A stretch of DNA of 30,450 nt, from IMG/VR virus record IMGVR_UViG_3300021357_000008, positions 1-30,450 of that record. One strand, written 5' to 3'. The notes below the pieces were generated by a model. It was given only the letters and a program-made list of their open reading frames with translations, was not told the DNA's origin and did not search any database. Within the stretch, counting starts at the first letter, position 1, and every line of letters begins with the position of its first letter. This document shows positions 14,136 through 15,677 of this stretch, in pieces. The translations under genes were made by a program, and so were the position numbers. This stretch comes from a virus.

Positions 14136-15677
14136 TTAGTTAACCCCCTTTGGTACAGTCTGCTTAGACTCTGTAATAATAGTCATGGTAAACACACGAC
14201 CGGGGCCATCTACTGTAGAGCCGTTTGTAGTTAACTCAACCGCAAAATTAATTTGCCTAAACCTTAATCCTCGTAAAAACTTAGCAAAACGTCTACCAAC
14301 ACCACTTTGTGTAGTCTGCACAGTTTGAACAATACCAGGTTCATCTAGAGGCTGTGCCCATGTGCCTAAATCCTGCCAAGCCGTCTCTTCTATATCTTGC
14401 CAAGCCACATCAAATGAAGCAATAATAGGGGTTGCAATGCCTGTTATATCATTCCTAGATGTAACATCAGCACCCCACCACCAGAGACGCTTAAACTGAT
14501 GTGATACAGCTAGATCAAAGTTTTTAGTCTTTGTTCTACAGGCTATCAAGTTAACTGCTAAATCAAGCGTTTCTTCTGTTTGTAGAGTAGCCTCATCAAA
14601 TAACTCTATGAAAGATGTTTGACTCAATACAGCTGAACCAGCATAATGTTTATGCTCCCCCTCAGAAAAGTGTAACGTAACTATTGGACCAAAGAAGTGT
14701 AACTCATTTCTTGCGCTACTCCATTCAGACCATGTTCGAGTACGCAATCCATATAAGTATATCTTATTAAAGATTCTACAGATAAGTCTATCCTCTAACT
14801 GGCTAAGGTGTATAATCTCATCACTTACAGGAGAAGGCGCTGTTTCATCAATTACAAAAGGTACTTTAGTATTTAATCTATGGAAGTCATAGTTAATAAT
14901 TTCGTATACCCATCCACCATGAAAAATATAAACCTGGTTTTCATAATTCAGCATCCGTCTATGGCGCTCAACTCCAATAGTCAAGGAAGTGTGCCGCACA
15001 ACAGCATCTGCTGGCTCTACATCATAAGCTAAAATCCACGTGGACCTAGTTTTGAAAATAAGTAAATTATCTCGATATACTGTTAAATCAGTTACTTTTG
15101 TACCATCACCTGGCATAATATCAATAAAATCTGAAGCAGACCACACATCCAAATTACCTGGGTTAGAAAAATTAAGCCGGCTACTATTTGTCGTTGAATC
15201 CACACCTGGAGCTAAGAACAACCTCTCTTTATGTATTACAGCAGCCTGGCCTGTAGGTATTGCAGCTATGACAGTAAACCCGCCTACAGGCTCCCATTTA
15301 CCACCTAGTCCATTATGACCTATGTCTGGAACCAGATATACATGATTATCATACTGCACAGCTACAGAAGCTTGGAACGTAGCCGTAATAAGAGTCCACG
15401 TACCATTAAGAAAGTGAAACACACCATTCGTATTGGACCCTATTAAATAGTGATTGGCTGCAAAAACCCCTTCTCCAATGAGAATGATACGTTCAGTCCA
15501 AGTACCCTGTCCTGCTAACTCTTTAAAAGGTGGACGTGAAATTAGCGATCCATCAATATCAAGTTCTAAGTTTGTGGACTCTAGTAATTCAGAGTCAGCA
15601 ATCGCCGTGGGATCGCTGCCTAAATTGAGTCAAAGGCCCCCAATAAAAGGTCCGAGACGCAACGGTTGACCAGGCAT
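14136..15677 (-). CDS. Tail nozzle/hub-like protein with an internal in-frame TGA
   Basis: The frame starts at ATG 15677 with AAGGAAGGTGAT upstream. It reads MPGQPLRLGPFIGGL, then TGA (15630-15632, codon 16), then continues in the same frame with LNLGSDPTAIAD and about 490 more residues. From the TGA to a GTG at 15422 there is no ATG, GTG or TTG, although the protein there (ELDIDGSLISRPPF) looks conserved. Several strand motifs recur (DNHVYLV, KERLFLAPG, RDNLLIFKTR, NQVYIFHG), suggesting a beta-propeller as in P22 gp10-like nozzles. Full product requires reading past the TGA by readthrough, hopping or suppression, or else the TGA is a mutation or sequence error. Gene order (adaptor just before it) supports the nozzle call. 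Confidence 0.7.

Follow-up and report, generated by a model that had tools for sequence, protein, structure and literature searches.

The window, meaning the whole stretch of DNA analysed here, is a 30,450-base virus record from IMG/VR with a podophage-like gene order: terminase, portal, major capsid protein, SU10-type adaptor and tail nozzle. The nozzle frame (Table 1) starts with MPGQPLRLGPFIGGL, passes through CTT-TGA-CTC-AAT, and continues after the TGA as LNLGSDPTAIAD..., open for 497 codons to 14136. Reinitiation at an ordinary start codon would have little to use, since for about 68 codons after the TGA there is no ATG, GTG or TTG. A sequence-only reading of this DNA had drawn attention to an in-frame TGA at codon 16 between two Leu codons, with a long open continuation poor in start codons, and that description is confirmed.

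Table 1. Features of the nozzle gene and of the proposed hop site (window coordinates).
Feature	Position	Strand	Remarks
Tail nozzle gene	14136..15677	-	15 opening codons, TGA, 497-codon continuation, stop at 14136
Nozzle start ATG	15677-15675	-	read from sequence
Opening ORF, MPGQPLRLGPFIGGL, 15 codons	15633..15677	-	product if the TGA terminates; mainly synonymous changes among relatives
Proposed take-off codon CTT (Leu15)	15635-15633	-	CTT in L066 too
In-frame TGA, codon 16	15632-15630	-	L066 counterpart is TAG
Proposed landing codon CTC (Leu)	15629-15627	-	L066 counterpart is CTT
AAT after the landing codon	15626-15624	-	read from sequence
Six-base insert relative to 73 distinct relatives	15627..15632	-	alignable as TGACTC, CTTTGA or TTTGAC
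G-rich run GGGGGC, directly 5' of CTT	15636..15642	-	weak Shine-Dalgarno-like match

Identification of the gene as a podophage tail nozzle is supported by a predicted fold and by its place directly after the adaptor gene (PF24175), both of which fit. The fold was taken from a model of the nozzle of a relative, L068 (a monomer with a pLDDT of 79.9, not the window's own protein), which in Foldseek matched the podophage nozzles of Pa223, cyanophages A4 and P-SCSP1u, PhiM1 (the C6 nozzle), Kp9 and P22 (gp10). The window nozzle (14136-15629) is missing a domain, about 200 residues long, that most of its closest relatives have between EATLQTEE and TLDLAVNL. This domain is also missing from more distant relatives, and a short version occurs in L006 and L008.

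An insert in a motif of fixed length

The relatives gathered in the first round (n=11) have nozzles 54-63% identical to that of the window, and all 11 carry the motif GGLNxxSDP with no stop. A wider search found 69 relatives, and the extended searches, together with the cultured Cellulosimicrobium phage DS1, Microbacterium phage Shocker and Arthrobacter phage Jasmine, gave 74 distinct sites in all. At 73 of these the motif GPFxGG[L/I/M]N is present without stop or insert, the single exception being L066. Exactly three residues separate GPF from [L/I/M]N at 72 of the 73 insert-free sites; at the odd one out (L009/L077) the frame is shifted locally, upstream, by a single base. Because the relatives' motif is free of stops and constant in length, the window carries a clean 6-base insert. 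The form GGLN-x-x-SDP had been predicted for the relatives beforehand; it was found in them without a stop, and deleting the six bases restores it exactly in the window.

The odd site deserves a brief description. At L009:2960-3010 (the same contig as L077), a single added base breaks up the nozzle N-terminus. Read in the zero frame it gives MGGEAIRLGPFHRWS and, after 15 codons, a TAA; slipping by +1 at UUU C would bring back GPFTGGLN. L006, L211 and L223 likewise have single-base frameshifts at other places, so the default reading of L009 is an error, though its closeness to the proposed hop site is curious.

The exception, L066, is a 45.4 kb IMG/VR record (IMGVR_UViG_3300049982_000010), like the window of metagenomic origin, whose nozzle is 64% identical to that of the window. 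It reads ...RIGPFIGGL, TAG, LNLGSDPTAIAD..., with the codons GGA CTT TAG CTT AAC. The two inserts agree in position, in their six-base length and in having Leu on both sides, and they differ in the stop, TAG against TGA. Alignment of the homologues had been proposed as a check on whether they all have a sense codon here; in L066 a stop stands there instead. No further case was found: a general pattern, GG-GG-codon-stop-codon-Asn...DPxxIAD, matched only L066, the exact 17-mer CTTTGACTCAATTTAGG and a downstream 23-mer matched no second record, the pattern GGNGGNCTNTGACTNAAT gave 51 chance matches with none in a nozzle gene, and the genome contig collection yielded no relative.

How are the two inserts related? 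Maximum-likelihood analysis does not place the window and L066 as sisters: the tree requires two changes, and 0% of bootstrap trees group them. The close sister of L066, L068 (75% identical), is insert-free. A tree from the first 125 residues is concordant but weakly resolved, and the first 70 residues of the window are closest to those of L066 (76%). Possible origins are two separate gains, one ancient gain followed by several losses, or recombination of an N-terminal piece. The Leu-stop-Leu insert of a non-sister lineage, with UAG where the window has UGA, is a strong argument against a chance mutation or an error, which the sequence-only reading had named as the dull option.

Is the interrupted frame under selection? 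A scan for internal stops compared 456 ORFs with the 11 related records, giving 1,771 alignments and about 556,000 aligned residues; the counts are those of the filtered scan, since the unfiltered output was dominated by antisense ORFs. Strongly conserved sequence lay to either side of just two internal in-frame stops, the window site and the L066 site, each backed by nine queries. Most of the other stops on the list fell at the borders of genes or where the alignment was weak. In the comparison of L066 with L068, the 12 codons preceding the stop comprise 3 identical, 7 synonymous and 2 changed codons, and the 70 codons after it 30 identical, 32 synonymous and 8 changed. This pattern suggests that selection acts in one frame on both sides of the stop, although part of the conservation may predate the insert, because both lineages may have gained it only recently.

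Possible ways past the stop

Both phages use the standard code, since TGA terminates 6 of the 19 supported genes in the window and, in L066, TAG terminates 6 of 30; this stop usage rules out genome-wide recoding. No phage-borne suppressor tRNA was found: the window has no tRNA genes, and L066 has only those for Lys, Gln, Leu(UAA) and Arg. (The four genes lie at L134:18287-19605 and L135:480-554 of the L066 record.) A plain +1 shift had been predicted to fail, and it does: after CTT, the +1 frame of the window reads DSI* and the -1 frame LTQFRQRSHGDC*, while the +1 frame of L066 meets a stop after 15 codons. Since both shifted frames (+1 and -1) run into a stop within 2-15 codons in both phages, synthesis of the full nozzle would need either readthrough or a net movement of +6. 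A net +6 from CUU to CUC in the window, or from CUU to CUU in L066, gives the exact family sequence.

The best explanation is probably a natural in-frame Leu-stop-Leu hop that meters the nozzle protein, for which a probability of about 0.6 seems appropriate. A ribosome would translate the 15 opening codons and pause, its peptidyl-tRNA-Leu paired with CUU while UGA occupies the A site. For a fraction of ribosomes, the tRNA-Leu would leave CUU, re-pair with CUC six bases on and resume at AAU, so that nine bases are predicted, from comparison with the 73 relatives, to yield one amino acid, and the product, ...GPFIGGLNLGSDP..., would be the family's normal protein. The remaining ribosomes would terminate, releasing a 15-residue peptide. 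The likely effect would be to lower and meter the output of a protein of which each virion needs few copies. The hop itself, how efficient it is and what it is for are all things that we infer from sequence comparison.

CUU and CUC are normally read by one tRNA-Leu(GAG), and both sites have what the Weiss type of hop calls for, that is, take-off and landing codons for one tRNA with only a stop between them (CTT-TGA-CTC and CTT-TAG-CTT). The flanking Leu codons alone are no proof of a hop, because they would also result if the Leu-Asn hexamer were duplicated and a mutation then created a stop. CTT and CTC together account for 45 of the 73 codons at this site, a codon preference that is compatible with hopping but weak. 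Synthetic hops without stimulators are inefficient, and candidate stimulators were sought around both stops. Folds of the 3' RNA had z scores of -3.3 in the window and -0.9 in L066, with -3.8 across the region in the insert-free L068; no structure common to the window and L066 sites was found, and an Rfam search gave no match. Nor was a shared Shine-Dalgarno-like stimulator found: the duplex is -8.4 kcal/mol in the window, -5.0 in L066 and -10.5 in insert-free L068, so that its strength does not discriminate and L066 is weak. As for a nascent-peptide stimulator, only 15-18 residues precede the stop, and PLRxGPFIGGL is conserved in insert-free relatives as well.

The +6 hop from CTT to CTC put forward in the sequence-only reading is thus supported by the homologues, with readthrough as its main rival. 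Programmed or leaky readthrough, by a near-cognate or host suppressor tRNA at UGA (UAG in L066), would give GGL-X-LNLGSDP, a product longer by two residues. It is simple and does without a hop, leakiness is possible at both UGA C and UAG C, and two extra residues might be tolerated in an N-terminus whose first 28 residues have low confidence in the monomer model; for the same reason, a structural argument about these residues was uninformative. Against this stands the GPF spacing, unvarying in 72 of 73 insert-free relatives despite great divergence. The hop is preferred because readthrough adds the two residues, leaves the six-base size and the second Leu codon unexplained in both phages, and would require separate suppressors for UGA and UAG, where no phage suppressor tRNA was found. 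Readthrough is accordingly regarded as unlikely, if still a serious contender.

The insert might instead be a recent inactivation or the off state of a phase-variable allele, with deletion between the CTT/CTC repeats turning the gene on. Slippage is possible at the short repeats CTTTAGCTT, the distribution is polyphyletic and insert-free relatives are common. The nozzle, however, is an essential protein of podophages, so that an off genome would form no virions; the same position, length and Leu flanks in two unrelated lineages would be unlikely from random inactivation, and no other gene across the 11 records is similarly broken by an in-frame stop, all of which makes this reading improbable. 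A few related contigs (L006, L009, L211 and L223) have unexplained single-base frameshifts, which lends something to the idea of a sequencing or assembly error in a metagenome contig, but a clean 6-base in-frame insert is an unusual type of error, and the recurrence of this structure, with a different stop, in another and diverged contig (L066) renders it very improbable. Least probable of all, and hardly credible, is that ribosomes terminate and then reinitiate a little way downstream from a non-standard start, with the 15-codon ORF as a leader and a shorter nozzle as the product. The short ORF does stop at the junction, and AUU codons occur 8 codons further on in both phages; yet the window offers no standard start over the long stretch noted above, and the PLRxGPFxGG that precedes the stop is conserved in relatives as the N-terminus of the same protein, with mainly synonymous changes.

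Known hops and bypasses

In the main review of the field, PMC5009743 (Atkins and colleagues, 2016), in-frame stop hops with matched flanking codons are described as working in synthetic E. coli constructs, where nine bases give one amino acid (citing Weiss 1987); natural in-frame stop hopping is there without known occurrence, and might hide behind cases called readthrough. Among the accessible portions of later, openly licensed papers, no report of a natural in-frame stop hop was found. The fuller claim, that this is the first natural in-frame Leu-stop-Leu hop, gained at least twice at one nozzle codon with different stops and metering an essential low-copy tail protein, would stand at roughly even odds. 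If true, two phage genes sharing one minimal signal (nine bases, two stops) would make natural stop hopping directly testable, and this would be the smallest natural bypass signal. It would also open a sequence-only route to more cases, namely comparison of homologues for a 6-base insert consisting of a stop and a synonymous codon.

The closest parallel is with the Leu-stop-Leu reporters (Weiss, Dunn, Atkins and Gesteland 1987, as described in PMC5009743), which likewise have matched codons around a stop and a net movement of +6 in the same frame. Those reporters were synthetic, whereas the window and L066 sites lie in natural phage genes, twice and with different stops. The prfB (RF2) +1 frameshift, with CUU UGA C and an upstream Shine-Dalgarno sequence, was an early point of comparison, and the likeness is partial: the window does have CUU UGA C after a G-rich run, but its +1 frame closes after three codons, and L066 has CUU UAG C and a weak Shine-Dalgarno match, so that the prfB arrangement is not needed. 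A prfB-type +1 shift is rejected, the +1 frame being closed in both phages.

T4 gene 60 bypassing shares with the nozzle site matched take-off and landing codons and a stop after take-off. It differs in having a 50-base gap, a change of frame, and nascent-peptide and stem-loop stimulators, where the nozzle site would have a 6-base in-frame hop after 15 codons and no RNA stimulator common to both phages was found. A link to a homing endonuclease, as in T4 gene 60, is unsupported, with none in the window and an HNH_3 gene by the terminase in L066. (This gene adjoins the terminase at 21168-21296 of contig G001 in the L066 record, and another is present in the L069 record.) The putative bypass in the terminase of Streptomyces phage Hau3, as outlined in PMC5009743, is alike in being a possible bypass in a phage structural gene, but it is tied to UUA decoding in the host and is not a Leu-stop-Leu in-frame hop. 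The byp elements of Magnusiomyces mitochondria, finally, are also inserts skipped in translation, with a product that equals the insert-free homologue; they are mitochondrial, occur many times per genome and are longer than the six bases of the nozzle insert.
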